Shown in pieces: positions 31,123 through 47,177 of a DNA stretch of 64,000 nt. Source of the stretch: Methanorbis rubei (lineage in GTDB: Archaea; Halobacteriota; Methanomicrobia; Methanomicrobiales; Methanocorpusculaceae); contig NZ_JAWDKB010000002.1 of the NCBI RefSeq assembly GCF_032714495.1, forward strand, positions 62,001 to 126,000, written 5' to 3'. A program made the translations under genes and the position numbers. Within the stretch, counting starts at the first letter, position 1; every line of letters starts with the position of its first letter. The notes below the pieces were generated by a model. That model ran no database searches, was not told the origin of the DNA, and was given only the letters and a program-made list of their open reading frames with translations.

Positions 31123-31827
31123 TCAGAATGCCTGATCGTTTGTGAGAGGGCCGCTGTAGTACACTTTGCCGGTCTTCATATCCATCAGAGTAATCAGCGA
31201 ATTGCCGTCCGAACTGATCGCACCACTTATTGCAGTTGTGCCGTCTGTATTTCTGGCTGCAAATCCGATCATATAGGAAGTTCCGCTCTTCATAACGTAC
31301 TCGGCAAGAACCACAAACCGTTCACCGGGCTGAACGAGATTATGGTATTTTTCCTCCTCACTCCATCCGGTTCCAAACTTCACAATCCGATGATCAACCG
31401 AACTTGCCGGCTGAGTCAGACGACTTCTCAGTTTGCCGGCTGACGCTGTCCCGCCTTCACCGCTGCTGATCCAGTCGGGGGCAACGGGAGTATTGTAGGA
31501 TACCGCAAATGATCCTCCTCCTCCAACAGAGCCGGAACCGGAGAGACGCAGATTCGTGATGTCAAGCGGAGTGTTTCCGATGACTTCAAACACCATCCCT
31601 CCCTCTCCAAGATTTGTCGCGGCCGGGAACCCCTCGCCAAGAGAGTATCCTGCGGCATACAGTCCGACGAATTTCACCTCAGCACTGCCGGCGGATGAAC
31701 TCGTCGAGTCAAGAAACCCGGCAGCACTCATACTCACCACTGCTGCAATAATGATTGTTATCACCAGCATCAGCATAACGCCGACAACCGGCGAAACTGC
31801 AGAATCTTTTTCCTGTGTCATTACCAT
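31123..31827 (-). CDS. Archaeal type IV pilin, type B (array 1, pair 3)
   Basis: 234 residues. The class III signal and hydrophobic N-helix are DSAVSPVVGVMLMLVITII. The C-domain has a type B layout: MVFEVIGNTPLDITNLRL, then PGERFVVLAEYVM, and an end in ITLMDMKTGKVYYSG. It is the last gene of the six-gene minus-strand pilin array. Its ATG overlaps the stop of the preceding pilin; a second ATG at 31821 overlaps that stop as TAATG. It should be processed by a prepilin peptidase and built into a pilus. Confidence 0.88.
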   Translation of the reverse strand: MVMTQEKDSAVSPVVGVMLMLVITIIIAAVVSMSAAGFLDSTSSSAGSAEVKFVGLYAAGYSLGEGFPAATNLGEGGMVFEVIGNTPLDITNLRLSGSGSVGGGGSFAVSYNTPVAPDWISSGEGGTASAGKLRSRLTQPASSVDHRIVKFGTGWSEEEKYHNLVQPGERFVVLAEYVMKSGTSYMIGFAARNTDGTTAISGAISSDGNSLITLMDMKTGKVYYSGPLTNDQAF

Positions 31828-32579
31828 ACTGCTCTCACATCCTTATCACTCAGAACAGTTCCGGTTGGTGTATGTATCACTGTTATGTGAACGACTGATC
31901 CGTCGCCGAAACCATAAGCGATTCTGTCTCCCACATCAAATCCGAGAAACTGATTAATGTTCTTGAACCACCAGGTGGTGCCGCTTGCAATCGGAGCTTT
32001 TCCGCCGAAGAAACGGTAATCATTCATCCCTTCACCAACAGTGAGGCCGTTTCCTGAGATCGGTACAACGTCAGTTGTGTAAAGATGAGTTCTCGGAATA
32101 AAGGGATCATCGTCTTTCGACCATACCATATCACTTGGCCAGCTTGGATTCGTAGAATCACCAATCAGTGACATACCGTAATTTTCCAGTCTGCCGTCAA
32201 TTGTGTGGGTGATAACTTTTCCCGCATTACTTAATGCAACTCCGTTGTAGGTTGCAGGCACGGTATATGAAGTCACAATCTGCAGATCATTAGAACTGAG
32301 CTGTCCGGTACAGGCTGTCACCTCGACAATAACAGGCGGCTGCTGTGTCACGGAAACGTACTGCGCAAGGCCCGCGTGAATGGTGTAATCAAAACCTGCC
32401 GAAGGAGCAGGAGTTGCCGAAGAGGCAAGACCGGTTGAAAAGCCTGCGACAATTGCTGCGATGATGATGGTAACAATCAGCATCAGCATGACTCCCACAA
32501 CCGGAGACACTCCCTCTTCCTTTTTTCCAAAATAAGAAGAAGGTTTGTGTGAATTCCGCTTTCGAATAAATTTTCGCAT
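31821..32579 (-). CDS. Archaeal type IV pilin, type A (array 1, pair 3)
   Basis: 252 residues from the ATG at 32579 with ggagg 9 bases upstream; the longer frame from 32669 overlaps the previous gene. A basic leader (MRKFIRKRNSHKP) precedes EGVSPVVGVMLMLIVTIII. The C-domain is type A: SSNDLQIVTSYTVPATY and an end in TVIHTPTGTVLSDKDVRAVW. Translationally coupled to the following type B pilin. Confidence 0.88.
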   Translation of the reverse strand: MRKFIRKRNSHKPSSYFGKKEEGVSPVVGVMLMLIVTIIIAAIVAGFSTGLASSATPAPSAGFDYTIHAGLAQYVSVTQQPPVIVEVTACTGQLSSNDLQIVTSYTVPATYNGVALSNAGKVITHTIDGRLENYGMSLIGDSTNPSWPSDMVWSKDDDPFIPRTHLYTTDVVPISGNGLTVGEGMNDYRFFGGKAPIASGTTWWFKNINQFLGFDVGDRIAYGFGDGSVVHITVIHTPTGTVLSDKDVRAVW

Positions 32580-32592
32580 ATAGTGCCTCCGG

Positions 32593-33246
32593 TTACCGGA
32601 TCGTAATCGTTCCGGCCTGCATGCGACCGCCGCTGTTTTTGTCGAGGACAACATACTCAATCGGTACATTCAGCTGAACATCAAAAGTTCCTCCGTCGAC
32701 CGGAGTCCAGCGAAGGAACTGGCCCTTCTTTGTTGCAGCTGCGTCCTGACTGTTGTCAAAGTAACCGTCAACAACAATGGAAAATGTCTCACCAAGGCCG
32801 ATAACATCATCCTGCTGTTTTGGAACCGCGAAATATGTCTCGCTGACACCGTTCGATCCAACCATGATGTTCAGTTTATCAGTATCAACATTGCTTGCTG
32901 TGATATCCCGGTAAACATTTGAGTCAAAGGTGATGGTCGAATCACCGTTTTTGAGCTGAACCGCTATGTCCTGCAGTCTGAACGAGTCTCCGCCGAGGAG
33001 TCTGAATGTCAGGCCGTTGTTGGGTTTGCTTCCGGATTTGTAGTTGGGTTCACTGTTCATTTTGTCAGTATCAATGATACTTGCGGTGTAGGAAACATCC
33101 AGTGTTACCTGCGGGGCAACCTTCTGTTCTCCGGCAAGACCTCCGGTAAACGAGGCAACCATTGCTGCGATGATGATGGTCACAACCAGCATCAGCATTA
33201 CGCCAACAACCGGTGACACACCGTCATCTCTGCTGCATTTCTTCAT
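32593..33246 (-). CDS. Archaeal type IV pilin, type B (array 1, pair 2)
   Basis: 217 residues. N-terminus DGVSPVVGVMLMLVVTIII. Type B body: LTFRLLGGDSFRLQDIAVQL, IGLGETFSIVVDGYF, and an end in VVLDKNSGGRMQAGTITIR. Its ATG overlaps the stop of the upstream type A pilin by 4 bases. The next pair starts 13 bases after its stop. Confidence 0.88.
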   Translation of the reverse strand: MKKCSRDDGVSPVVGVMLMLVVTIIIAAMVASFTGGLAGEQKVAPQVTLDVSYTASIIDTDKMNSEPNYKSGSKPNNGLTFRLLGGDSFRLQDIAVQLKNGDSTITFDSNVYRDITASNVDTDKLNIMVGSNGVSETYFAVPKQQDDVIGLGETFSIVVDGYFDNSQDAAATKKGQFLRWTPVDGGTFDVQLNVPIEYVVLDKNSGGRMQAGTITIR

Positions 33247-33902
33247 TGTACAATTACCTCCTTGTTGTACAGGACCGCCTGACTCGGGGTATGAATGATG
33301 TTCACTGATACCTTGGAGCCTTTCGTAAATCCGTACTGTTTGATGATCTGATCCTTTGATTTTGCTTTAAGCTGGGCTTCCGTGCCAAAACCCAGAGCTA
33401 TCCATGTTCCGAGTGAATTGTAGGTAGTTGCGATGGTACCTGGGGCAAACTCATACTTGCCGAAGTTGATCTTTGAGTCACCTAATGATCCGGCAGTTAC
33501 ATCAGACAAAATAGGTACCACGATTTTTTTGTTCACTCCCGCTGAATCCGTGACGGTAAAAATGGGCATCGACTGGGCAAGCACTTCTCCCCGTATGACA
33601 GATCTTTCGTCTCCGGTGGAGGTGTAATATGTTGTAATCTTCAGATCAGATGAAGGGATGCTGCTGCCTCCCACATGTTCGATGAGTATGACGTCCTGCT
33701 TTCCATCCGTTCCGCCGCTGGATAAAATTTTCACATTCAGTACTGTTGACGGTGCAGCCTCGGTGTCGGCAAAGGTTGTGCCGGCAAACATTGAGACAAA
33801 CGCGGCAATGATGATGGTCACAACAAGCATCAGCATCACACCGATAACCGGAGAAACCGCGTCATTTGTTTTTCTGGTGTTTGATTTTTTGATAACATGC
33901 AT
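33243..33902 (-). CDS. Archaeal type IV pilin, type A (array 1, pair 2)
   Basis: 219 residues. N-terminus NDAVSPVIGVMLMLVVTIII. Type A body: ILIEHVGGSSIPSSDLKITT and an end in NIIHTPSQAVLYNKEVIVQ. Starts 18 bases after pair 1; aagaggtt-like sequence upstream may be its ribosome binding site. Confidence 0.88.
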   Translation of the reverse strand: MHVIKKSNTRKTNDAVSPVIGVMLMLVVTIIIAAFVSMFAGTTFADTEAAPSTVLNVKILSSGGTDGKQDVILIEHVGGSSIPSSDLKITTYYTSTGDERSVIRGEVLAQSMPIFTVTDSAGVNKKIVVPILSDVTAGSLGDSKINFGKYEFAPGTIATTYNSLGTWIALGFGTEAQLKAKSKDQIIKQYGFTKGSKVSVNIIHTPSQAVLYNKEVIVQ

Positions 33903-33920
33903 AGTAAGAACCTCTTCGTT

Positions 33921-34598
33921 TTACCATAGATCATAGTCAAGTGTGCGGCCCGAAAGATCACCTGAGGAAATGCTCGCGCCGGATTTTGTGTCAATCAAAG
34001 AGTACTGGGTTTTTGCACTGAGTTCGAACTCTCCTTCAGAGTACGCAGTGCTTCCGCCACGGTCTGCAATGAGGTAGATGTGGTTATAGGACAATCCCTG
34101 CACCGCGATGATTCTGTCTGCAAAGATGATGAACCGGTCTCCGGGTTTGATGAGCGTATTTCCCTGTGTTGCAACAGCAGTTGAGAGTACGCCGATTTTT
34201 TTCATACGGGTTTTGACCGTATCAGGCAGTCGCGACTCGCCAGGTTTCTGAATATTTTTGTAGATGGCTGACGGTGCGTCATTGTAGGAGATGGTTACTT
34301 CATTTCCTCCGGTACGGGTGGCTTCTTTGAGATCAAGCTGAAGATTGAACAGCGAGATCTCTTCTCCTCCTTTGTGTTCAAAGACAAGACCGACTTCACC
34401 GAGATCACCAAGACTGCTGGACAGGTTTCCCGCCATTACGCCGACATACTGTATCTGAGCCTGCGGAGTTTTTTCCGTGTTTGCTACCATGTTTCCGGCA
34501 AATCCGCTGACGACAGCGGCTATGATAACAGTGATCACAATCATAAGCATGACGCCGACAACTGGTGACACCGCATTTTCCTCTGTTGCTCTCTTCAT
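33921..34598 (-). CDS. Archaeal type IV pilin, type B (array 1, pair 1)
   Basis: 225 residues. N-terminus ENAVSPVVGVMLMIVITVII. Type B body: LVFEHKGGEEISLFNLQLDL, KPGDRFIIFADRIIA, and an end with YSLIDTKSGASISSGDLSG. Overlaps the stop of the first type A pilin by 4 bases. Confidence 0.88.
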   Translation of the reverse strand: MKRATEENAVSPVVGVMLMIVITVIIAAVVSGFAGNMVANTEKTPQAQIQYVGVMAGNLSSSLGDLGEVGLVFEHKGGEEISLFNLQLDLKEATRTGGNEVTISYNDAPSAIYKNIQKPGESRLPDTVKTRMKKIGVLSTAVATQGNTLIKPGDRFIIFADRIIAVQGLSYNHIYLIADRGGSTAYSEGEFELSAKTQYSLIDTKSGASISSGDLSGRTLDYDLW

Positions 34599-35242
34599 AC
34601 CATGGTCCTCACGTCTTTGTCGAAGATCACTTTACCGCTTGGCATGTGGATGATCGATATATGGGCCTCTGACATTCCGGTGGAAAATCCGTATTTTCTC
34701 CAGTCATTGGTCGTGCTGAATCCGAGGAAGTAATCCAGATCAAAGATCAATTTTCCTCCTGAGGTGAGAATCGCATCTCCGAACAACCGGTTGACCGTTT
34801 TTGTGGTGACGTTTTCCTCATTGTTTGTTACCTGATGGACGAACGGATAGCCCACGGCCTCAGAGTTGAGATCATTTTCACTTGTGGGTTCGAGTTTTCC
34901 ATCGATTGTGTGCATGATTACTTTTCCGCCATCTCCTAACTTTTGTCCGAGAAAACGATCAGGTACGGTGTACGATGTTACAATCTGCAGATCGCTTGTC
35001 GGAAGGGCTTCCCCTCCCAGATGTTCAATGACCGCTTTTTTTTCAAGCGTTCCGCCATACAAGGAGACTTGTAACGAGACGGTGGGCGCTGCCTGACTGC
35101 TGGTTCCAATGCCGCTGGCAAAACTGCTGACAACTGCGGCAATGATGATAGTGACAACGAGCATCAGCATGACTCCTACAACCGGAGAGATCCCGTCCTC
35201 TTTTTTCGGACGACTCCGGTTTTGCAGGTCTGATTTTTTCAT
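34595..35242 (-). CDS. Archaeal type IV pilin, type A (array 1, pair 1)
   Basis: 215 residues and first gene of the minus-strand array. A basic leader (QNRSRPKKEDG) precedes ISPVVGVMLMLVVTIIIAAV. Type A body: VIEHLGGEALPTSDLQIVTS and an end in IIHMPSGKVIFDKDVRTMV. gggtggag lies upstream as a ribosome binding site. The promoter must lie in the AT-rich gap above 35243. Confidence 0.88.
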   Translation of the reverse strand: MKKSDLQNRSRPKKEDGISPVVGVMLMLVVTIIIAAVVSSFASGIGTSSQAAPTVSLQVSLYGGTLEKKAVIEHLGGEALPTSDLQIVTSYTVPDRFLGQKLGDGGKVIMHTIDGKLEPTSENDLNSEAVGYPFVHQVTNNEENVTTKTVNRLFGDAILTSGGKLIFDLDYFLGFSTTNDWRKYGFSTGMSEAHISIIHMPSGKVIFDKDVRTMV

Positions 35243-35903
35243 GATTCACATACTCCACCCAAATTAAGAAAATCATTTTTAGATAATGAAATTAATTTGG
35301 TTTATACTGATTTGTGTTAATTCCTAAAAATAGATGTCGCGTATCGGGTTTGTTTTGCGGATTCGAGGTGAATTATGCGTGTATTATCTGCATTGCATAT
35401 TGGGTTTTGTATGTGTACGGCAGAGGGTGTGGTGGTGTGAAGTGCGTTATATTGTGTGTATATCCATTCTGTCGGGATTTTAGCCAAACTTCGATAAATT
35501 TTTCATCTGTGTTCTATGTTTGCCGATGCGGTTTAAGTGACCTTCATAAATGGATTTTGAGGCTGTTTTTTGGGTGGGAAATGGTTTTGGTTGTTGAAAA
35601 ATAACGTGACTTTATTAGACTGTTTTGATTGTCAGCCTATTCTCTATAATGGTGTTTGATTGTATTTTTGAAAATAATCGATGTTAATTTGGTAAATTAT
35701 GGTTATTAACCCTGAATTTTCACGATTTTTTCACCGGTATTCATGCGCGTTGTGAAATAATATGTGTCAGAGTATATTGAACGCGATTGACAGTGTAAAT
35801 ATGTTGATGTTTACTTATTGTAAAAGTCATACTATTAACTTATAAGCGGTGTCCACGTATCCTAACATGTTATCTCCTGAGTTGTTACCTGTGGGGGATA
35901 CGA
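35243..35903. other. AT-rich divergent promoter region between pilin arrays
   Basis: 661 bases with no convincing gene. The plus strand is T- and G-rich, unlike the flanks. A plus-strand frame at 35314-35604 gives a Cys-rich, low-quality peptide that I reject. Likely promoters: TATA-like cttataag at about 35838 for the plus array, and A/T runs at 35280-35310 for the minus array. It probably holds regulatory sites for both pilin units. Confidence 0.6.
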
Positions 35904-36683
35904 ATGTGTGATATTATGCAGCGCAGAACAAACACCAAAAAGGATGATGCAGTATCGCCGGTTGTCGGCGTAATGCTGATGCTCGTTGTGACCATCATCA
36001 TTGCAGCCGTTGTCAGCATGTATGCGGGCGGCCTTATCGGCAGTGCCGAAAAAGCTCCGACACTGACGATGGATGTTACTATCAAAAACACCGGTTACTA
36101 TGCAACCAGCGTTTTTGAAGCAAAAGTCATGTCAGTCAGCGAACCAATCGCTACAAAAGATCTGAAACTTGTTACCTCTTGGAAAGCAAGCAACAAAACG
36201 GTGACAGGCACTCACTCAAAAACCGGCGCTGATCTCATTGACGGAAATATTTCCATCGGAGGTACAACCGTTACTTCTGCAGGGAACGTTTTTGGATGGG
36301 GTTCAGGCGGAGGATTTGAAGGAATGACCGCTCCATGGGGATACGGCAACGGTGTTCAGTCAGGAAACTCTGGAAAACCCAATGACAAGGAGCAACAGTT
36401 TGGAAACTACACACTTCTCGGCGGCACTGTCATGACGGCATGGCCTGCCGGACAGAGTGGTGGATACGTTACCACTACCGGTGGCAGCGGTTATGGAACC
36501 ACAAATCAGTATTACTACGACGAAGGTGCATGGGCATATTCGGAAGGTACCACGGTTGACGGCATGCAGGCTGTTCTTGGAGAAAACTGGCAGTATCTGC
36601 GTACAGGAGACACGGTAAATGTGAAACTGATTCACCTGCCGAGCGGACAGACAATTTATGACAAGAATGTGGTGGTGAGCTAA
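35904..36683 (+). CDS. Archaeal type IV pilin, type A, Gly-rich (pair 4)
   Basis: 259 residues. N-terminus DDAVSPVVGVMLMLVVTIII. Type A features: PIATKDLKLVTSWKASNKTV and an end in LIHLPSGQTIYDKNVVVS. The middle (about residues 120-205) is unusually rich in Gly, Ser and aromatic residues (WGSGGGFEGMTAPWGYGNG). ggggga precedes the ATG. It has a 26-base segment (35946-35971) identical to the next pilin gene. Confidence 0.88.
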   Translation: MCDIMQRRTNTKKDDAVSPVVGVMLMLVVTIIIAAVVSMYAGGLIGSAEKAPTLTMDVTIKNTGYYATSVFEAKVMSVSEPIATKDLKLVTSWKASNKTVTGTHSKTGADLIDGNISIGGTTVTSAGNVFGWGSGGGFEGMTAPWGYGNGVQSGNSGKPNDKEQQFGNYTLLGGTVMTAWPAGQSGGYVTTTGGSGYGTTNQYYYDEGAWAYSEGTTVDGMQAVLGENWQYLRTGDTVNVKLIHLPSGQTIYDKNVVVS

Positions 36684-36684
36684 C

Positions 36685-37296
36685 ATGAGAAAAGAAAAAA
36701 TCAACGATGCAGTATCGCCGGTTGTCGGCGTCATGCTCATGCTTGTTGTGACTATCATCATTGCCGCACTGGTGAGTACATTTGCCGCAGGCCTTGCGGA
36801 CTCTCAGTCGACTCCTCCGCAACTTGCCCTGAAGGGAACCTACAGTCAGTCAACCGGCCTTGTGATCACCCATGCGGGAGGCGATCCAGTAGCTCTTGCT
36901 GATGTCGCTTTCATAACTACTCCCTCCGAACTGTTTGGCGCGGATGGAAACAAATTTGCATGGGTCATCGATAAATCGATCATCTCAAACTCGAAAAATC
37001 AGCCTATCCTCAACAAAACCAGTGGATTTTATACAACATCCGCCCTGGTCTCAGGTGACTCCCTCCATGTTACGCATGAAAACAGCGTGGATTTCAGTAC
37101 CGATAGTAGCTGGAAAGGCCCGAACCCGGGTGTCAATTACAACGCGCAGACTCTCTGGGAAGGTGAGGGTAAATCCCTGTATTTCGGAGCATATGCATTC
37201 TGCAACCCGGACAATGTCGGCAAGTACTTCTACCTTGACATGGTTGATCCGGCAGGAAGCACCATTGCCAGAGCAAAAGTTACCATCACCGCGTGA
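36685..37296 (+). CDS. Archaeal type IV pilin, type B (pair 4)
   Basis: 203 residues. N-terminus NDAVSPVVGVMLMLVVTIII. Type B-like body: LVITHAGGDPVALADVAFIT, EGEGKSLYFGAYAF, and an end in LDMVDPAGSTIARAKVTITA. Starts one base after the stop of its type A partner. A T-tract (37311-37319) follows the stop and probably ends this two-gene transcript. Confidence 0.87.
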   Translation: MRKEKINDAVSPVVGVMLMLVVTIIIAALVSTFAAGLADSQSTPPQLALKGTYSQSTGLVITHAGGDPVALADVAFITTPSELFGADGNKFAWVIDKSIISNSKNQPILNKTSGFYTTSALVSGDSLHVTHENSVDFSTDSSWKGPNPGVNYNAQTLWEGEGKSLYFGAYAFCNPDNVGKYFYLDMVDPAGSTIARAKVTITA

Positions 37297-37573
37297 TGGT
37301 ACCCCCTCTCTTTTTTTCAAGTATCCGATCACACCGACACTCTTTTCACACTCAGTAAGTTAAATTAACGTGCCCTATTTATACTAAAAATAAAATACAT
37401 TTAGTTTGAAAACACCTGAACCCCTTCGAAGAAAAACCAGCTAATTATATTAACCACAAAATATAGATCACTAACTAAAAAAAATATTACTAAACATCAA
37501 TACATTTGAAACACGATAATGTTCAGCCACTCCCCGCCATGACATTGTCCACCTCACAGGAGTTTTCTAAACC

Positions 37574-40132
37574 ATGAATCCACAAAAAATTCTCATCGTC
37601 GCCCTTCTTGCAGTCCTCGTTCTCAGCATATGCGCAGGCCCTGTCTCGGCGCGATACCCGACCGTTCAGGGAGAAAACGCGGGAATATCAGTACTTGACA
37701 CTGTCTACATCGGAGAAAAAAATCTGAATTTTTCTGCATTCGCAGACTCAGGAAAAACTCTTGATGCAATGGCAAAAAAAGAGAACGGCGACATCATGGG
37801 GGAGTACTTTCAACTCACGAACGACGTTGCAAGCCAGATTACCGGAAGTCCCGGAACCTACTACGCACACTACACTGACGGAACCTTCGGCACCAGAGTC
37901 TGTCAGGTAAAAACTCTCTCGCTTGGCACACTCAAAGTCAGCGCTCCCGACAACACCGAGATCTTCACCAACGATCAACCGGCGAACATCCCCACAACTC
38001 TTGGCGTCATCTTCTACATCGAAGGCGGCAACCTCAACGATCTCATCGGACAAAATCCCAGTGGCGACTGGAATGAGTTCAAACTCACCAACACCAACTC
38101 CGGTGTCGGCATCACCCAGATCGTCAACATCGCCGGCATGCAGCAGTCCCTTCTCGGCATCGCAAACCCATCCGACAAAACAAACACCAACTACGAGTTC
38201 CGGTTGGGAGATCAGACCAACATCCCAATCGACGAAGACACTCAGGCGTCGATGACGTTCAGGATCAACCTCAACGGACTGCAACAGACCGCATCCTACT
38301 CCTTCACCGCGGTTCGGGGAACACTGGATCTCTCGCTTGACCAGAACGAAGTCCAGCAAAACAGCAACATCGCCGCAACCCTCACCGGAACACCGTTCAC
38401 CGACTACATCCTCCAGCTCTCGCCCTCCTCTAACGCAAACTCCCCGTATTTTCCCGACAGCGGAACCTACACAAAAATCGATGACTACACCATCAGAGTG
38501 CAGCCGGGATGGGACGGCAAAGCACTGGTTCAGATAATCGTGCCCGCAGCAGCACCGATCGGCAGCTATCAGGTAACTGCATCTGTTGCCGCATCTCCCC
38601 TCGAAAAGAAAACCGTTTCTTTCCGCGTAACAAGTGGCGCGCTGACTCTTACCTTCGAAGAACCCCCGGCCGATGTCAAAAACGGAAGATTTTCCGTTGG
38701 TGACTCCATCACACTCAAGGGAGTGGTTACCGGCGCACAAAAAACCGTTCCCGTCTATCTCTACATTACCGGCCCGAATCTTCCGGCAAACGGAGCCTCG
38801 CTCACCGACCCGTGGTCTGAAGTCGTTGACGGAGATGCCTCAACATTTACTACAACCATCTACAGCCCGAACATCGGGAAATGGGAGTATCTGTGGTGGA
38901 CCAAAAACTTTGAACCGGGAACCTACACCATTCATGCAAACCTCAACCCATACGGACACCGCGAAGGAGGAACCGTCGGGGGCGCGGGGACCGACATCGA
39001 CGGCAGTGTCGCTCTTTCCTGGGATTATCCCATCAGTGAACCAAGCATTCAGGCAAAATCCTCTGACAAATCCGGCGGCTACTTTGCCAAAGGCGACATC
39101 CTCTACTCATGGTGGATAGCCCGCGGCAGTCCGGGTGTTACCGACCAATCGAAAACCAGCGGCGAAGTACGCTGGTATATCTTTGGAACCAACTTCCGGT
39201 ACGCGGACCGCGAGACAAACTTCCCGCTCTTCAGTGGAACCTCAGACTCGTCCGACGGCGGCGAAGTCGGAAAAACCGCGCCATGGGGAGAGTACGGCTT
39301 TACCTACAACCGCACCTTCACCTATGGCCTCTCATCCGGAGTCTACTATCTCGTCTATCAGCATCCAGGCCCGAACAATGTCTTTGACGTGAGTGCTACG
39401 GGCGCAGCCCTCAACGGAGGAATCCTGACTACGGTTACCACAACTTACGGGGCCTCCTCTGACTTCACCTATATGCAGGGCAAAACTGCGGCAGATGCTC
39501 TCACCAAAATGTTTGAAGACCCAAAATCCGACGACCTCTATATCATGACGCAGTTCATGGTGGAAGAGCCCTGGATAAGCTTCGACTCCATCAGCAACAC
39601 TGCGGTTGGAGACAAACTGAAAATTTCCGGCAGAACAAATCTTGCTGCATCCGACAAAACAGCGGACAAAACAAACACTCAGGACACGCTCTGGCTGACT
39701 ATCAGCAGACTTGATCTCAATGTCGGCAGCGAGACAAGCACCGCGATGAAAATTCCAGTGGACACCACGTCCCCTTCTTCTCCGACACCGTTCCGCGGCT
39801 ACCGGACGTTTGGCTATGATGAGATCGATACCAGCAGCTGGTATCCGGGAACCTACGAAGTCACCGTCACCTGCAAGGACGTCAGCTTCAAACAAAGCTA
39901 CAACTTTGAACTTCTCTCTCCTGACGCGAAAACCAGCAGCACAACCACTTCTCCGACCATTGATCCCGATCTTTCAACAAATCCGTATCAGACCACACAG
40001 GCGACACCTCTTCACACACCGACCCAGTCTGTTGCATGGACTGCCGAACCCACGCTTACTCAGGCGTCAGGTTTTGGCATAGGACTTCTTCTCGCGGGTC
40101 TTGCCGCGGCATTTTTCATCAGGAGGTATTAG
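37574..40132 (+). CDS. Large exported surface protein with C-terminal anchor (DUF3821-like)
   Basis: 852 residues. A signal peptide runs to about residue 26 (LAVLVLSICAGPVSA). The N-terminal part after RYPTVQGENAGISVLDTVYI resembles DUF3821 proteins of methanogens. Several Ig-like beta modules follow. A Thr/Ser/Pro-rich linker (TSSTTTSPTIDPDLSTN) leads to SGFGIGLLLAGLAAAFFIRRY, a PGF-CTERM-like anchor. It is probably an S-layer-type or pilus-associated surface protein. It is the first gene of an eight-gene operon that runs on to the pilus ATPase and four pilins; the next gene begins 3 bases after its stop. Confidence 0.8.
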   Translation: MNPQKILIVALLAVLVLSICAGPVSARYPTVQGENAGISVLDTVYIGEKNLNFSAFADSGKTLDAMAKKENGDIMGEYFQLTNDVASQITGSPGTYYAHYTDGTFGTRVCQVKTLSLGTLKVSAPDNTEIFTNDQPANIPTTLGVIFYIEGGNLNDLIGQNPSGDWNEFKLTNTNSGVGITQIVNIAGMQQSLLGIANPSDKTNTNYEFRLGDQTNIPIDEDTQASMTFRINLNGLQQTASYSFTAVRGTLDLSLDQNEVQQNSNIAATLTGTPFTDYILQLSPSSNANSPYFPDSGTYTKIDDYTIRVQPGWDGKALVQIIVPAAAPIGSYQVTASVAASPLEKKTVSFRVTSGALTLTFEEPPADVKNGRFSVGDSITLKGVVTGAQKTVPVYLYITGPNLPANGASLTDPWSEVVDGDASTFTTTIYSPNIGKWEYLWWTKNFEPGTYTIHANLNPYGHREGGTVGGAGTDIDGSVALSWDYPISEPSIQAKSSDKSGGYFAKGDILYSWWIARGSPGVTDQSKTSGEVRWYIFGTNFRYADRETNFPLFSGTSDSSDGGEVGKTAPWGEYGFTYNRTFTYGLSSGVYYLVYQHPGPNNVFDVSATGAALNGGILTTVTTTYGASSDFTYMQGKTAADALTKMFEDPKSDDLYIMTQFMVEEPWISFDSISNTAVGDKLKISGRTNLAASDKTADKTNTQDTLWLTISRLDLNVGSETSTAMKIPVDTTSPSSPTPFRGYRTFGYDEIDTSSWYPGTYEVTVTCKDVSFKQSYNFELLSPDAKTSSTTTSPTIDPDLSTNPYQTTQATPLHTPTQSVAWTAEPTLTQASGFGIGLLLAGLAAAFFIRRY

Positions 40133-40135
40133 ACA

Positions 40136-41518
40136 ATGGCGTTCAAACTCGACAAAAATGCATTCAAATGGATTATGATCGCGATGGTTGCCATATTTGT
40201 CGTCATGGCAGGCCTCCTTGTCTTCCATTTTGCAGGCGGTCTCTCTCTCTTTCAACCTGAACCAACTCCGACACCGTCTCCCGACGGAACACCTGCAGAA
40301 GAAACCGGACCCTGGGGACAAAAAAGTTTTTCCTGGCAGTATAACGGCATCACTCATGCGGCAAACGTCTACATCACCAAAGATATCTATAAAAAATATC
40401 AGTACGGCATCTCAGGCACTATCTGTCCGGAAGACCTCCCGGACTACATTGTTACTTATGGCGACGGCGGAGTCGTTTCCGATCTCGCCGGACAGATGAA
40501 AAATATCATTCTGCGACAGGGCTACACGAGTGATGCAGACATTGTCGGTCTCGTGCTTGCTTTCTCAGAGTCAATCACTTATCAGACAGACTCAGAAACC
40601 GGCCACTCATCCGCATACCCGCGGACGCCGGTCGTCACTCTTGCAGAACAGACCGGCGACTCTGCGGATCATGCAATTCTCGCAGCCGCGGTTCTGGAAG
40701 AGCTCGGCTACGGCTGTGCTCTTCTCTATTATCCGTCCACCTATGATCGCCTCTCACTCATTCCTGACGCAACAGCTCTCGGCCTCATCAGCGATGACGA
40801 CAGCTCCCGGCCGGTTTACACTGCGGTTCTTGAAAACATCACAACGTTTTCGGTCGCTCCCTTCTGGGCTGTTGACACAAACAGCCAGGGCTTCCCGACC
40901 GCTGCCTACAATGGAATCACGCCGCAGATTCTCACAAGCGAATCCTTCTGGACCGGCAAACATTACACACCAACCGATGGAGAATATCCAGGCCTCAACA
41001 TCACATCAACCCTTCTCATCAAAGACTCGAACAATCTCACCTTCACTCCCCGCAACTGGCAGAAGGATGTCGCCGACTACTATGCCGACAGCTGGTATAA
41101 GACTGGAATCTCATGGTCGATGAATGATAAATGGCAGCTTTATCAGCAGTTCGTCAAAGTCGCTGATGTTCCGACAACTCTCTACACCCCATGGGGAACT
41201 GCTGTGCACAATGCAACCGTTCCCTGGCGGATGGTGTATGAGATTACCGGAATGGACGATGACCATTCCGATAAGGAGATGACGCCGTACAGCGATGTCC
41301 GGATCGCGGTTTACTCATACAATGAGAAAACCGATTCAGCAGAACTGATCAAAGTGTTTGGCTGGCAGGGACTCTACGGTGCTGACAAGTACCGAATGGT
41401 CGGCCCCTTCTCTCCTGGAAACTACGCGATTGCCGTCTTCGTCAGAAACGCCGGTGTCGATATCTCACTTGAGTATCACGGCAAGTCAGGTACTCCATCC
41501 TACACCGGAGGCATCTGA
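40136..41518 (+). CDS. Membrane-anchored transglutaminase-like protein lacking the catalytic Cys
   Basis: 460 residues. One N-terminal TM helix (about 13-35, IMIAMVAIFVVMAGLLVFHF) and a Pro/Thr linker (PEPTPTPSPDGTP) place the rest outside the membrane. The region around VVTLAEQTGDSADHAILAAA matches the transglutaminase-like core, where archaeal members read TL..GGDCED. Here Ser176 takes the place of the Cys, so the protein is probably not a thiol enzyme of the usual kind. It is joined to the preceding surface protein gene (3-base gap) and overlaps the ATPase gene by one base (TGATG). It may act as a pilus-linked structural or binding protein. Confidence 0.72.
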   Translation: MAFKLDKNAFKWIMIAMVAIFVVMAGLLVFHFAGGLSLFQPEPTPTPSPDGTPAEETGPWGQKSFSWQYNGITHAANVYITKDIYKKYQYGISGTICPEDLPDYIVTYGDGGVVSDLAGQMKNIILRQGYTSDADIVGLVLAFSESITYQTDSETGHSSAYPRTPVVTLAEQTGDSADHAILAAAVLEELGYGCALLYYPSTYDRLSLIPDATALGLISDDDSSRPVYTAVLENITTFSVAPFWAVDTNSQGFPTAAYNGITPQILTSESFWTGKHYTPTDGEYPGLNITSTLLIKDSNNLTFTPRNWQKDVADYYADSWYKTGISWSMNDKWQLYQQFVKVADVPTTLYTPWGTAVHNATVPWRMVYEITGMDDDHSDKEMTPYSDVRIAVYSYNEKTDSAELIKVFGWQGLYGADKYRMVGPFSPGNYAIAVFVRNAGVDISLEYHGKSGTPSYTGGI

Positions 41519-43260
41519 TGCCGTTTCTCCGGACAAAAAAATCTGAAGAAGATCCCGCGACCGAGGAGACCAAAAGTCACAGTCTTCGAAATATTTTTTC
41601 AGACAAAAAAAATTCCTCTGAAAATATTTCTACAGAAAAAAAATTTACCAATTTTGATCTTCATGAACTTTTTTCTTTTGGAAAAGAGTCAGAGTCTCCC
41701 GAGGAACAGGAAGAAAAAATTGTAAAAAAATTTTCTCTGGGAAATCTTTTTGAAAAAAAATCTAACGAACAAAAAATTATTTTTGAAGAGCCTCCGCAGA
41801 TCCTCGAACTCCCTGAGTTCGAAACAGAACACGAAGTGCTTGATCGCTACTGGCTCACGCCGCCATATGCCTACGCCAACATCTACCGCGACGAAGTCTC
41901 GCACATTCACTATGAGATAGTTGAGCCGAAGATCTCAGAAAAGGAACTCGTCGTGCTCGAAGAAACCTTCGAGCACCTGCGGTCCATGCTGGTCTATGAC
42001 ACTGTTCGCAAACGCGGAGAGTTTGGTCTGGACCTTGGCATGCTTCGTGACGTCATCAGCACCTTTGATCCTGAAATAACATCAGATCGGATCGGTGTTC
42101 TCATCTATTACCTCAACCGCAACTTTCTCGGCTACAGCCGGCTCGATCCTCTCATGCACGACGAAAAAATCGAAGACATCACCTGTAACGGTGCTGACAT
42201 TCCGATTTTTTTGTATCACCGCAGGTTCGCGAACGTTGAGACCAACTGTCTGTTCGACGCGGTCGAGCTGAACAAGTATGTTCTGAAGCTTGCCCAGAAA
42301 GCTGACAAACAGTTGTCGCTGACAACGCCTCTTATCGACGCGGCCCTTCCTGACGGCAGCCGGGCACAGCTGACTTACTCGGACATCATCTCCTCCAAAG
42401 GAAGTTCGTTCACCATCCGTAAATTCAAAGTCGACCCGATGACGCCTGCTGATCTCATCGCGTCCAACACCTATAGCGCTGATCTCATGGCCCATATCTG
42501 GCTTGCTGTTGAGAACCGCAAAAGCATGATCATCGCAGGAGGTACCGCAAGCGGCAAGACCTCGACCATGAACGCGGCGTCCTTTTTCATCCCCTCGGTT
42601 GCGAAAATTGTTTCCATCGAAGACACCCGAGAAATTCAGCTGCCGCACACCAACTGGCTGCCGATGAAAACGAGGGAAAGCGTTGCCAATGTTTCCGGCA
42701 TGGGAAACATCAGCATGTTCTCGCTTCTGAAAGCTGCACTCAGGCAGCGGCCAGAGTACATCATTGTCGGAGAAGTCCGCGGCGAAGAAGCCCAGACACT
42801 TTTTCAGGCGATGAACACCGGTCACACCACCTACTCAACGCTGCATGCAGGAAATGTCAAGGAGGCGATCAACCGGCTCACGCATAATCCGATTAACGTT
42901 CCGGTCGCCATGTTCGGCGCCTTAAACCTTATTCTGGTTCAAAGTCTGCTCTATGGCGAGGGCAAAGGGTTTCGCCGATGTCTTTCCCTGAACGAGATAT
43001 CGGTCGGAGAAGGTGGCATCAACTGGCAACCGCTCTTCACCTGGGATCATCTGACGGACACGTTCGTCAAAAGTTACGAAAACTCCTCGGTCTTTGACAA
43101 TATCGCCTACCAGAACAACTGGTCAAGAGAACAGCTTGAGAGAAAACTTGCAGTCCGAAGGACTGCGCTTGAACAAATGGTTGCCTGCGGAAAAACGACG
43201 CCTCCTGATGTCGAAGCCGCGATACGCGAGACGATCATTACGGAACAGAGGAGTCGATGA
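41518..43260 (+). CDS. Type IV pilus assembly ATPase (GspE/TadA/ArlI family)
   Basis: 580 residues. The first 100 are Lys-, Ser- and Glu-rich and probably disordered. The N2 domain is followed by the ATPase core: Walker A GGTASGKTS (341-349, Lys347), Asp box IEDTREIQLPH, Walker B YIIVGEVRGEEA, and His box TGHTTYSTLHA. It powers pilin polymerisation from the cytoplasm as a hexamer. It overlaps the platform gene by 4 bases and lies in the same operon as four pilins. Confidence 0.95.
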   Translation: MPFLRTKKSEEDPATEETKSHSLRNIFSDKKNSSENISTEKKFTNFDLHELFSFGKESESPEEQEEKIVKKFSLGNLFEKKSNEQKIIFEEPPQILELPEFETEHEVLDRYWLTPPYAYANIYRDEVSHIHYEIVEPKISEKELVVLEETFEHLRSMLVYDTVRKRGEFGLDLGMLRDVISTFDPEITSDRIGVLIYYLNRNFLGYSRLDPLMHDEKIEDITCNGADIPIFLYHRRFANVETNCLFDAVELNKYVLKLAQKADKQLSLTTPLIDAALPDGSRAQLTYSDIISSKGSSFTIRKFKVDPMTPADLIASNTYSADLMAHIWLAVENRKSMIIAGGTASGKTSTMNAASFFIPSVAKIVSIEDTREIQLPHTNWLPMKTRESVANVSGMGNISMFSLLKAALRQRPEYIIVGEVRGEEAQTLFQAMNTGHTTYSTLHAGNVKEAINRLTHNPINVPVAMFGALNLILVQSLLYGEGKGFRRCLSLNEISVGEGGINWQPLFTWDHLTDTFVKSYENSSVFDNIAYQNNWSREQLERKLAVRRTALEQMVACGKTTPPDVEAAIRETIITEQRSR

Positions 43261-45062
43261 CCGAAACAAAAAATTTCATTGACCGGCTTCTCTTCAACAA
43301 ACAGATGGCCGGAACGCTTCGTTCAGCCCACATCACCGTTCCGGTCGATCAGTACATGATGCTGACCGTTCTTCTTACGGTTCTTTCAGCTCTCCTCATG
43401 ATGATGGTCGGAGTTCTGTTCTTTGTCTTTGACATCAGCTTCAATCCGATTCCGTTTCTTCCCCAGTGGCTTGTGATGCTGTTCGCTGTAGTCCTCGCCC
43501 CTGCCGGCGTTTTTGCCGCACTCTACTACTATCCGCAGCTTGAGGCGCAGGGAAGAAAAACGAAAATCGACATGGACCTGCCGTATGCAATCACCTACAT
43601 GCAGGCCCTTTCTTCCACGATCACGCTCTACGACATTTTCCGCAGCGTCTACGACGCGGCTGATCTCTACGGCGAAGTCTCCAAAGAGTGCGGACTCATC
43701 GTCCGGGATGTGGAGTTGTTCGGCGAGGACCTTCTGACCGCGATGGAGAACACCATCTCGGTCACACCTTCGGAAAACTTTCGCGAACTCTTGAACGATC
43801 TGATGCTGGTCTACCGCTCGGGCGGCAACCTCACGAACTTTTTCAATGCAAAGTCTGAGTCGTACCGCGAACTCGCAAGACAGGAGCTTGAAGCACTGCT
43901 GCAGTTTCTGGAGATGATCGCAGAAATTTATGTGACCGCGTTTGTCGCAGGACCCATTGCTATCATCATCATGCTGGTCGCCCAAAATCTTTCCGGCCAG
44001 AGTACACTTGCAGGAATCATGCCTCTGATGTACATCGGGCTTCCGCTCGGAGCAATTGCTCTCATCTTCATTCTCTACATTCTTCTGCCGCCCGACAACC
44101 TTGACATCACCCGCCGCGAAGTAAGAGACAGCGAGTACGGCACTGAACTTCTCACTCCGGGCGTTGAGACAGCACCTGATGCCGCGTTCATCAAACAGCT
44201 GAACAACCGCAAGCAGATGCTCAAACTTCTCGAAATTGTCAGGCACCCGATCAAATTTTTCATCTCAGACTACACGATCCCGATGATTGTCGGTTGCATT
44301 CTTGCAGCTGTTGTGTTCCTCTCCTACCTGACCGGAGCGTTTGCAAACATCTTTTCCAGTTTCACCTTCCAGTCTCTCATCTGCATTATGGGAATAGCCG
44401 CGATGTTTCCTCTGATGACTGCGTATGAGATCCGCCGCAGATATGTGAACAAGGTTGAGACCCAGCTGCCGGAATTTCTGCGTGAGATTGCTGACATGCG
44501 TGATATCGGCATGACCCTTCAGGGAGCCATCTTCATGATCTCAGGCAACAAGACCGGTGTGCTCTCCTCTGAGATAAGAGTGGTGTCTGATGAACTCAAA
44601 TACGGTTCATCGCTTGCGGGGGCACTTGTCAGAATGGAGGAGCGTATCGGTCTTGTCTCGGTGAAGCGGGCCATCTCACTTCTGGTAAAAGCGAGCGAGG
44701 TGACTGATTACATCAGGGAAATTTTAACAATTGCAATAGCGGACCTCGAACATTATCTGAAGATGAAGTCAAAGCGGCTGAATGTTTCGTTCGTGTATCT
44801 GGCGGTAATCTATCTGTCGTTTGGTATCTATCTCTACTCGGCGTACCAGATGAACGTCGCGTTCATCTCCAGTTTTTCTGCGTATGATATCAGTTTTGAT
44901 CTCACTTCGAACAAGACCGATATGTTTCACATCGGTATCATTCTTGCATTCTTCTCCGGCATTATGGCAGGCCAGCTCTCGGCGAACAGTATTCTCTGCG
45001 GGCTGAAACACTCGATCATTCTCCTCTCGGCAACGATTGTGATGTTTGTCTTTATTCTTTAG
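43257..45062 (+). CDS. Pilus platform membrane protein (TadC/ArlJ family)
   Basis: 601 residues with two T2SSF-type domains and about nine TM helices. Soluble helical parts (for example DMDLPYAITYMQALSSTI and LPEFLREIADMRDIGMTLQG) mark the two repeats. The protein is the membrane anchor around which pilins polymerise and works with the ATPase encoded just before it. The start overlaps the ATPase stop by 4 bases. Confidence 0.94.
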   Translation: MTETKNFIDRLLFNKQMAGTLRSAHITVPVDQYMMLTVLLTVLSALLMMMVGVLFFVFDISFNPIPFLPQWLVMLFAVVLAPAGVFAALYYYPQLEAQGRKTKIDMDLPYAITYMQALSSTITLYDIFRSVYDAADLYGEVSKECGLIVRDVELFGEDLLTAMENTISVTPSENFRELLNDLMLVYRSGGNLTNFFNAKSESYRELARQELEALLQFLEMIAEIYVTAFVAGPIAIIIMLVAQNLSGQSTLAGIMPLMYIGLPLGAIALIFILYILLPPDNLDITRREVRDSEYGTELLTPGVETAPDAAFIKQLNNRKQMLKLLEIVRHPIKFFISDYTIPMIVGCILAAVVFLSYLTGAFANIFSSFTFQSLICIMGIAAMFPLMTAYEIRRRYVNKVETQLPEFLREIADMRDIGMTLQGAIFMISGNKTGVLSSEIRVVSDELKYGSSLAGALVRMEERIGLVSVKRAISLLVKASEVTDYIREILTIAIADLEHYLKMKSKRLNVSFVYLAVIYLSFGIYLYSAYQMNVAFISSFSAYDISFDLTSNKTDMFHIGIILAFFSGIMAGQLSANSILCGLKHSIILLSATIVMFVFIL

Positions 45063-45071
45063 GAAAAAATC

Positions 45072-45494
45072 ATGAGCTGCGATACATCTGACAATGCAAT
45101 CACCTCGGTTGTGGGTGAGATGCTGATTTTAGTTCTGGTGATAATTTTAGTTTCACTGTTTGCAACGTCTGCGTTCAATCTTCTGCCTGGCGACCGCGAA
45201 ACGGTCGCGACCGTTTCGATGAGCCACAATGATTCCCATCTGATCTTCTGGCACAAGGGAGGCGACTGGGTGGACAAAAAAGATCTGACGATTACGGCAA
45301 CGCCGAAAGCCGGCGGTGATCGGATTACTCTTCCAATCGATGAAGTGTCTGATTACTCAGGAAGTCCGGTCGAGGTGTTTGATCTCGGCGGAAGCATCAC
45401 CACAAAGACGGAAAATCTCAGTGAAGGAGTCGTCTACGAAATACGGGTCACAACCCCGAAGAATGTCATCTATGCAAGGGAGTTTACCCGATGA
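45072..45494 (+). CDS. Archaeal type IV pilin, small type A-like
   Basis: 140 residues. N-terminus DNAITSVVGEMLILVLVIIL; the Glu after VVG mirrors the Glu5 found in many type IV pilins. Type A features: LIFWHKGGDWVDKKDLTITA and an end in TTPKNVIYAREFTR. Starts 9 bases after the platform gene and overlaps the next gene by 4. Likely a minor pilin. Confidence 0.85.
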   Translation: MSCDTSDNAITSVVGEMLILVLVIILVSLFATSAFNLLPGDRETVATVSMSHNDSHLIFWHKGGDWVDKKDLTITATPKAGGDRITLPIDEVSDYSGSPVEVFDLGGSITTKTENLSEGVVYEIRVTTPKNVIYAREFTR

Positions 45495-46240
45495 AATCCG
45501 ATCACGATGAGGCGGTCTCGACCGTAATTGCCCTGATGCTGATTCTTGCGATTCTTTCGACATGCGTTGCCGTCTACTCGGCAACCTATGTCCCGGGACT
45601 CAAACAGCAGTCTGAGATTTTGCACAACGGCGAGGTGCAGTATGCATTCCAGCGTCTCTCTTCTGATGTTGATAATCTCTACTCGCTTGGCCGGTCTGCC
45701 CAGTTCTCTGAACCCGTTCCTCTTGGCGGCGGAGACATTCTCTTAAGCCCCGTGAAGTCGAGCGGAACGATTGAACTTCACCAGAAAAACATTGCTAACA
45801 TTACTGTCGGCAGCGACGAGTTTGAAATTGGGACAACCTCTGTTTCCTACACGCCATCGTACTCTTCATGGGAGCTTCAAGGCTACCTGTATCAGAATGG
45901 TGTCGTCTGGATTACGAAAGGCACCAAGAAAACTCCTGCTGATCTTATCCTTCATACGGTCAAGATGGGAACAGATCAGGAGAACGAGACGATCAACAGA
46001 TCGCTTGATGCGATGCGTCCGGTCCGATCTGGTGAAAACTACACGATGCAGATTGTATCGATGACTCCTGCTGACGAAAAAAGTTCTGTGACCGGTTCAG
46101 GGATTGCAAAAATTCGGTTGAACGCAACCGAAGAGACGAGATATTATGAGAATACACTGGTAACGTTCGACTCTGAATCAATTCTCTCTTCAGTAAACGT
46201 CACGCTGAAAATTCTGCGCATTGAGGTGAGTGTTGCATGA
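45491..46240 (+). CDS. Pilin-like protein, divergent
   Basis: 249 residues. The N-terminus DEAVSTVIALMLILAILSTC is pilin-like but lacks the SPVVG block. The body (VQYAFQRLSSDVDNLYSLGR, then beta-rich) resembles neither type A nor type B. It may be a minor or tip pilin. It is coupled by 4-base overlaps to the pilins on both sides. Confidence 0.78.
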   Translation: MKSDHDEAVSTVIALMLILAILSTCVAVYSATYVPGLKQQSEILHNGEVQYAFQRLSSDVDNLYSLGRSAQFSEPVPLGGGDILLSPVKSSGTIELHQKNIANITVGSDEFEIGTTSVSYTPSYSSWELQGYLYQNGVVWITKGTKKTPADLILHTVKMGTDQENETINRSLDAMRPVRSGENYTMQIVSMTPADEKSSVTGSGIAKIRLNATEETRYYENTLVTFDSESILSSVNVTLKILRIEVSVA

Positions 46241-46707
46241 CCCGCGACTCTGCCGTGTCTCCGGTTGTCGGCGTCATGCTGCTTCTTGTTCTCGTCATCA
46301 TCTTCACTGCGGTTCTTGCTGCCTATGCAGGCGGCCTTGCCCAGACGTCAGCACCTTCTCCATCGGTTGAGATTGCCGCCGGTAGTTCTGGCAGCGGCGA
46401 AGATTTTTCTCTCATCTTCGAACATCGCGGAGGCGAGGCCCTTCCTGCTGCTGACTCCAAGATCACCGCATTCATCGACTCGCATGAGAGTTCCTTCCTG
46501 GCTTCCGCTATCGCCGAAGGCAGCAGCTGGCGTGCCGGAGAGATCGTCAGCACGAAAAATCTCACCGAAACTGCATCACTCCTCAAAATTTCCGAGAGTC
46601 AGCTCACCCAGTACATCAAACGCTCCACCCCTCTTGAGCTTCGCATCTATCATCTCCCTACCAACTCGATTCTCTTCAAAGACACCATCCTTCTGGAGGA
46701 ACCATGA
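46237..46707 (+). CDS. Archaeal type IV pilin, type A (pair 5)
   Basis: 156 residues. N-terminus DSAVSPVVGVMLLLVLVIIF. Type A features: LIFEHRGGEALPAADSKITA and an end in IYHLPTNSILFKDTILLEEP. Overlaps its type B partner by 4 bases. Confidence 0.87.
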   Translation: MTRDSAVSPVVGVMLLLVLVIIFTAVLAAYAGGLAQTSAPSPSVEIAAGSSGSGEDFSLIFEHRGGEALPAADSKITAFIDSHESSFLASAIAEGSSWRAGEIVSTKNLTETASLLKISESQLTQYIKRSTPLELRIYHLPTNSILFKDTILLEEP

Positions 46708-47177
46708 TGAAAAAAACCGATTCCGCAGTCTCCGAGGTTGTCGGCGTTCTCTTAATGCTGACGATCACGCTCATTCTTGTGAGTCTTGTGGCCGTTTCCA
46801 TGAACAGTGCGGTCAGCAGTACCGAAAAACCAATTACTGCTACGATCATCGCGTCAGGTGTTCACGGTAAAAACATCACCTTCGAAAACACTGCCGGCGA
46901 TGCTTTTGTCCTGAATCAGATTGAACTTCGTCTCGGCATCCGCGAGTATCCTTCACAGTACACAACGCTCCGAAACACCGCCGAGAAAGAGCGGCTGATA
47001 AGTTACTCGGATTCTCCGACGATCGCCCTTGGCGACCGGTTTTACATTGAGTCAGAAGGGGGTGAAAAACTTCGGTGGGGTTCCTTTGAGATCTCTTCCG
47101 GCAGTCATCTGACGTACCGGTTCTATGATCTCCGGACCGGCAGCCCGATCTCCTCAGGTGAAATTTCTGTACCGTAA
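46704..47177 (+). CDS. Archaeal type IV pilin, type B (pair 5)
   Basis: 157 residues; two adjacent ATG codons (46704, 46707) allow either start. N-terminus DSAVSEVVGVLLMLTITLIL, with Glu in place of Pro. Type B features: ITFENTAGDAFVLNQIELRL, IALGDRFYIESEGG, and an end in FYDLRTGSPISSGEISV. Last gene of the operon. Confidence 0.87.
   Translation: MMKKTDSAVSEVVGVLLMLTITLILVSLVAVSMNSAVSSTEKPITATIIASGVHGKNITFENTAGDAFVLNQIELRLGIREYPSQYTTLRNTAEKERLISYSDSPTIALGDRFYIESEGGEKLRWGSFEISSGSHLTYRFYDLRTGSPISSGEISVP

Follow-up and report, generated by a model that had tools for sequence, protein, structure and literature searches.

Ordered pairs of two pilin types in Methanorbis rubei and across Methanomicrobiales, and their possible assembly into two-component type IV pili

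The window analysed in the present study, 64,000 nucleotides from the 1.83 Mb genome of Methanorbis rubei (C2:62001-126000; contig NZ_JAWDKB010000002.1), carries at its positions 31123-47177 a cluster of type IV pilin genes, in which a gene of one type, designated A, is followed directly by a gene of a second type, designated B, in five tightly coupled pairs (P1-P5). We found that this A-B pairing pattern is real and order-wide in Methanomicrobiales, reaching beyond the genome of the window, and that the alternation of the two types is not a matter of chance. Each pair may encode two subunits that co-assemble, probably at a ratio of 1:1, into a two-component pilus, a reading to which we assign a probability of approximately 0.5.

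The ten A/B genes that had been listed in an initial annotation of this DNA were all present, each with a score over the cut-off of the Pilin_N family PF07790 and with a processing site of the SPVVG type ahead of its hydrophobic helix. That inventory was short of two genes, as the region contains twelve pilin-like genes, not ten; the ordered and overlapping pair X-Y (45072-45494, 45491-46240) had been left out. X was over the PF07790 cut-off and Y was under it. On the minus strand, the order of transcription is A3-B3, A2-B2, A1-B1 (array 1), and on the plus strand, A4-B4 is followed by genes for a large secreted protein, a membrane-anchored protein, an assembly ATPase, and a platform protein, and then by X, Y, A5, and B5. 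The pilin genes are listed below with their matches to PF07790 and their scores with the hidden Markov models (HMMs) of each type.

34595..35242, minus strand: pilin A3, type A, first of pair P3 (PF07790 1.9e-20; type A HMM 121.7 bits)
33921..34598, minus strand: pilin B3, type B, second of P3 (PF07790 3e-20; type B 110 bits)
33243..33902, minus strand: pilin A2, type A, pair P2 (PF07790 6.1e-21; type A 121.3 bits)
32593..33246, minus strand: pilin B2, type B, pair P2 (PF07790 1.9e-20; type B 98.3 bits)
31821..32579, minus strand: pilin A1, type A, pair P1 (PF07790 3e-13; type A 76.8 bits)
31123..31827, minus strand: pilin B1, type B, pair P1 (PF07790 4.5e-13; type B 36.3 bits)
35904..36683, plus strand: pilin A4, type A, pair P4 (PF07790 3.6e-15; type A 147.6 bits)
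36685..37296, plus strand: pilin B4, of the second B family (B'), pair P4 (PF07790 1.3e-22; B' 128.5 versus B 17.3 bits)
45072..45494, plus strand: pilin-like protein X, first of the X-Y pair (PF07790 4.5e-18; X family 76 bits)
45491..46240, plus strand: pilin-like protein Y, DUF7289-like (Y family 171 bits; weak PF23960)
46237..46707, plus strand: pilin A5, type A, pair P5, inside the machine operon (type A 29.8 bits)
46704..47177, plus strand: pilin B5, type B, pair P5 (type B 69.7 bits)

The close coupling within pairs was as previously described. With the likeliest starts, A1/B1 overlap by 1-7 bases, A2/B2 by 4, A3/B3 by 4, and A5/B5 by 1-4, and A4/B4 do not overlap and have one base between them. 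The gaps between the pairs of array 1, which had been given as 13-18 bases, are 18 bases (B3 to A2) and 13 bases (B2 to A1). X and Y overlap by 4 bases and lie directly upstream of A5-B5. The start of A1 was placed at 32579, not at the upstream start of the longest open reading frame (ORF), 32669; alternative starts exist for B1 (31827 or 31821), A4 (35904 or 35916), and B5 (46704 or 46707). A whole-genome profile search with PF07790 yielded 20 matches over the cut-off, 11 of which were within the region (the ten A/B genes and X), and the PF07790 genes fetched from elsewhere in the genome mostly clustered apart from A/B, or alone. The bacterial N_methyl pilin model had no match anywhere in the genome.

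Regarding the division into two types, the proposal was upheld by HMM typing and by clustering, except that B4 is not of the same kind as the other B genes and belongs to a second family, B'. To regions from related genomes, several of which came from one pilin-rich genome, we added 73 loci that a type A profile detected in GTDB species genomes. The pilins numbered 543, of which 495 were unique; clustered without supervision, these fell into five large groups, namely, A (186), B (117), B' (72), X (57), and Y (53), with B4 clustering as B'. When the helix was removed and only the heads were compared, A1-A5 matched one another, as did B1, B3, and B5, with B2 matching weakly and B4 standing apart. 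HMMs trained without any sequence from the family of the window typed all twelve window genes as expected with wide margins. A maximum-likelihood tree was built from 96 proteins. In it, one branch set A apart (support 63), another did so for B (98), and B' was nearly separate; the labels A, B, and B' required two changes, which is the minimum. The tree thus separates A and B into the two clades that the initial annotation had anticipated, and the weak branch support for A makes the A/B' split less sure than that of B. Judged from these sequence comparisons, the A, B, and B' genes represent two or three separate protein types. The motifs that had been quoted for them are loose, as A1 and A4 lack the GG of type A and B1, B2, and B4 lack the exact GDRF of type B.

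The pair rule was then counted for the 182 type A genes that were not interrupted by a contig end, with a partner being sought within 110 bases. The next gene was B in 104 cases, B' in 61, and a gene clustered with X in seven, most of which scored higher with the B model; therefore, 172 of the 182 were followed by B, B', or a B-like gene, five of the others being followed by another A and five by no pilin. A and its partner typically overlap by 4 bases or are 0-5 bases apart, the commonest spacing being -4 for A-B (68/104) and 2 bases for A-B' (13/61), and the gap from B to the next A has a median of 17 bases. Among the 101 arrays composed only of A, B, and B', 93 were perfect (AB)n; the reversed order, (BA)n, was never met in the sampled arrays. 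These 101 arrays contained 149 A-to-B steps against 76.5 expected, and the maximum in 10,000 within-array shuffles was 97. The alternation that had been suggested as worth surveying in related genomes is, thus, present in them. The loci were chosen for pilin clusters or a type A gene, and, hence, lone pilins elsewhere are under-sampled in these counts. The X-Y pair obeys a similar order, Y directly following an X in 46 of 53 cases in the related loci. Among the ORFs of the window and of the related loci numbered up to L164, no natural A-B fusion was found.

Two elaborations of this layout were observed. In some Methanocorpusculum loci (L052, L053, L061-L064, L110, L116, L130, L159, and L161), many of which come from metagenome-assembled genomes (MAGs) of animal guts, pilins form triplets or quartets, in which A is preceded by one or two extra B'-clustering pilins and followed by a B-like partner. 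These extra pilins have lengths of 142-156 and 248-271 aa, and the small ones end in HIV..K..VLVK. One genome (G031, f2 g11; L077-L084) had 52 PF07790 matches and numerous sites with pair arrays, among them L078 with two blocks of three A-B' pairs that resemble each other, and represents a lineage with a strong pilin expansion.

The pairs of the window have individual identities that are retained elsewhere. In 117 of 119 assignable pairs, A and B chose the same window pair as their nearest relative; therefore, the five window pairs correspond to five pair families (P1-P5), and these are kept across genera. The order P3-P2-P1 recurs in several families of Methanomicrobiales, and other genera possess whole pairs as P2 alone, P3-P2, or P3. 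Regarding the loci with P2, P3 was upstream in 15 and no pilin was upstream in 14, and downstream there was P1 in 9 and no pilin in 17. Gains and losses concern the whole pair. In all 165 of 165 pairs, moreover, the nearest type A gene in another genome had the same type of partner. Since the order and identity of P3-P2-P1 are kept across families, the idea of several interchangeable pairs, which the initial annotation had put forward, is unsupported, and we rejected it in favor of pair families that are specialized and ancient.

A-B pairs proper were seen in Methanomicrobiales and not elsewhere in the sample, except for L128, which is labelled only Euryarchaeota, and L093 (JAQVAY010000067.1), a contig from a MAG labelled 'Bacilli bacterium'. 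The latter carries an archaeal P3-P2 array with 66% identity to A3 in the best segment, and is most likely a misbinned archaeal contig. A-B' pairs were found outside the order in Methanolobus, Methanomethylovorans, Methanococcoides, one Archaeoglobaceae genome, and one further genome of the same phylum (L188). With these few exceptions, the A-B rule was not seen in the same-phylum genomes sampled outside Methanomicrobiales, the pilins of which were mostly single or in tandems without such a rule. Haloarchaeal plasmid pilins gave no match at the sensitivity of tblastn.

In addition to gene order, the proteins themselves are compatible with a common filament. A near-identical hydrophobic segment was present in all major pilins of the window and the related loci, and in a comparison of the first 26 residues of the helix, free-standing partners were 83% (A-B) and 86% (A-B') identical, their heads being approximately 24% identical. 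The helices of core pairs, which lie within the machine operon, were 42% identical and those of X-Y 22%. The high identity of the helices fits a packing of free A and B into one core; it is support and not proof, because a single assembly machine would itself demand like helices. AlphaFold2 models of A3 (predicted local distance difference test score, pLDDT, 88.8) and B3 (pLDDT 86.5) each consisted of a single helix with a beta-sandwich. Both models had their best PDB match in the pilus subunit 8fj5 of Haloferax volcanii, with the archaellum protein FlaF near the top of the matches for both. The template modelling scores (TM-scores) of these matches were low, 0.45 by target, and this limits the claim to the general fold; at that level, A3 and B3 are predicted to be pilins of the filament type. 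Simple charge complementarity between the heads was considered and dropped, as the heads of A and B are both negative and their charges are positively correlated.

The same locus encodes a putative assembly apparatus, with an ATPase of the T2SSE type and a platform protein with a double T2SSF domain next to each other and two larger proteins upstream of them.

41518..43260, plus strand: assembly ATPase, PilB3/VirB11-like (PF00437 5.4e-32)
43257..45062, plus strand: membrane platform protein, TadC/PilC-like, with two T2SSF domains (PF00482 1.1e-22, two stretches)
37574..40132, plus strand: large secreted protein with a hydrophobic anchor at its end, S-layer- or adhesin-like, in the same operon region (no Pfam match)
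40136..41518, plus strand: membrane-anchored protein, possibly transglutaminase-like by analogy with passages of PMC4858521 (no Pfam match)

Elsewhere in the genome, an ATPase and a platform protein occur together at a single other locus (C1:15737-18750), and C7 has one further match to the ATPase family. This second pilus-type machine (C1:15737-21190, L085) is adjoined by different, unrelated-looking pilins. Between the two divergent pilin arrays of the window is an AT-rich gap of 660 bases (35243-35903), which should hold the promoters of both.

Taken together, the A-B unit may be regarded as a co-translated pair of filament-type pilins. After processing of the signal peptide, A and B would pack via their near-identical N-terminal helices into the same filament core, with their differing beta-sandwich heads meeting on the outside, and the resulting pilus would be a two-component polymer, probably 1:1, and perhaps built from A-B dimers. 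Its assembly would fall to the PilB3-type ATPase and TadC protein of the locus. The free-standing pairs (P1-P4) would supply the filament, and P5, which is in the machine operon, probably forms a minor or initiating set with X and Y; A5 and Y are probable minor pilins, and the diverged helices of P5, X, and Y fit such a role. Two-subunit pili or A-B dimers, as originally suggested, are, thus, the best explanation of the pairing, and co-assembly is the step that we infer.

Several points weigh against co-assembly. A few A and B genes have no partner, the shared core helix would also be required for the mere use of the same machine, and codon bias, which was rejected as a clue to stoichiometry, showed no consistent difference between A and B. 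The distance matrices of A and B were correlated with r 0.84, which fell to 0.50 +/- 0.02 when partners were swapped within a genome (some loci from one genome were merged by hand in this mirror-tree test); however, B(n) and the next A gave r 0.88 versus 0.92-0.93 for own partners. Since neighboring non-partners correlate nearly as well, the mirror-tree signal alone does not prove contact, and we dropped it as proof of partnership. Known archaeal pili also urge caution. In Sulfolobus acidocaldarius, AapA and AapB are encoded by adjacent pilin genes beside assembly genes, as A and B are, but AapB alone is in the filament (PMC11178815), which warns against reading pairing as co-assembly. Hfx. 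volcanii PilA1-6 with PilB3-PilC3 share with the present locus an ATPase/TadC machine of the same clade (by the assignment of Methanocorpusculum labreanum in the relevant passages of PMC4858521) and several pilins with a near-identical hydrophobic segment (the same passages; PMC4371748), a segment needed for pilus assembly in that species (PMC4371748). They differ in that any one PilA suffices for forming pili (PMC4371748) and in that 8fj5 has a single chain sequence.

These precedents lend themselves to other explanations. One member of a pair, A or B, may form the filament, with the other being a dedicated tip, cap, or adhesin from the same message. AapA/AapB are a case of this kind, and the same tight coupling and cognate inheritance would be expected; nevertheless, we regard it as unlikely because the helices of free A and B are so alike, in contrast to the diverged ones of X, Y, A5, and B5, which are likely minor pilins, because overlap coupling offers no obvious way to make one member rare, and because codon usage does not set A apart from B. 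It is more doubtful still that A and B are independent pilins that each form homopolymers, their pairing being a relic of a tandem duplication long ago, after which the two-gene block was copied. Such an origin would agree with the sufficiency of each Hfx. volcanii PilA for (short) pili and with the nearly equal distance correlations produced by linkage alone. However, A-B adjacency is retained in 172 of 182 cases, yet pair-to-pair adjacency is lost in approximately half of the P2 loci; single-gene deletions or duplications would have disrupted more pairs, and the order (BA)n was never met. The functional unit may also be larger than the pair, with the whole P3-P2-P1 array making one filament of up to six pilins. 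The constancy of this order in several families and the spacing of 13-35 bases between pairs speak for such a filament, but the occurrence in other genera of P2 or P3 alone, and of P3-P2 without P1, always as intact pairs, makes it very improbable.

The co-assembly of A and B would have precedents, and the initial impression that no such pairing had been described is right in part: for the order-wide rule no description was found, but adjacent pilins thought to form mixed pili and a two-subunit filament had been described. The Ups pili of Sulfolobales have two adjacent major pilins, UpsA and UpsB, thought to form mixed pili, and single mutants have fewer pili (PMC3892339, PMC7064770). They resemble A and B as two adjacent archaeal pilins that are both thought to be major, and differ in that there is one pair per genome, the machine is of a different clade, and no multiplication of the pair has been reported. 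In the archaellum of Methanocaldococcus villosus, ArlB1 and ArlB2 alternate in one filament, for which a pre-formed heterodimer was proposed as the building block (PMC8821640). Adjacent genes for two different subunits, as would suit such a two-component filament, are present in the A-B pairs. In contrast to A and B, ArlB1 and ArlB2 are archaellins and not PF07790 pilins of this kind, and their filament is not an adhesion-type pilus. Streptococcus sanguinis has a heteropolymeric type 4 pilus with more than one major pilin (PMC10628169). That pilus is, unlike A/B, bacterial. We know of no ordered multi-pair pilin arrays in S. sanguinis. In Geobacter, the adjacent short pilin genes PilA-N and PilA-C encode products reported as a heterodimeric filament unit, which is one pilin split into helix and head, whereas both members of an A-B pair have a helix and a head.

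Regarding M. labreanum, the main-text passages of Makarova et al. (2016) describe a single locus with all PilA-type genes and the PilB3-type machine, assigned to the PilB3-type (clade 2) branch (PMC4858521). Those passages also note the tendency of major pilins to duplicate in tandem and the presence of S-layer-like and transglutaminase-like proteins at such pilus loci, including those of Methanomicrobiales; two alternating pilin types or pairing are not mentioned in the passages on the M. labreanum locus. No description of an order-wide A-B pairing rule was found in the open-licence literature, the silence of which is weak evidence. A heteropolymeric type IV filament is already known, and what appears to be new, judging from gene order and sequence, is the order-wide A-B pairing, which may encode a variant of such a filament.

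A wider claim may be made more tentatively, and we place it a little below even odds: that type IV pili consist of obligate A-B heterodimers throughout an entire order of methanogens, as well as in parts of Methanosarcinales and Archaeoglobi. With the gene pair as the unit of duplication and specialization, each cell would then possess several dedicated two-protein pili and one machine to make them, and the pair families would show how one machine serves several specialized fibers. Archaeal type IV pili solved to date have mostly been treated as homopolymers, and, if A and B do share a filament, helical reconstructions with a single imposed subunit would be incorrect for these pili. The archaellum of M. 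villosus raised the question of how frequent alternating subunits are; Methanomicrobiales may offer a group that is large and easy to sample, where the order of the genes predicts both a two-subunit filament and the identity of its partners.

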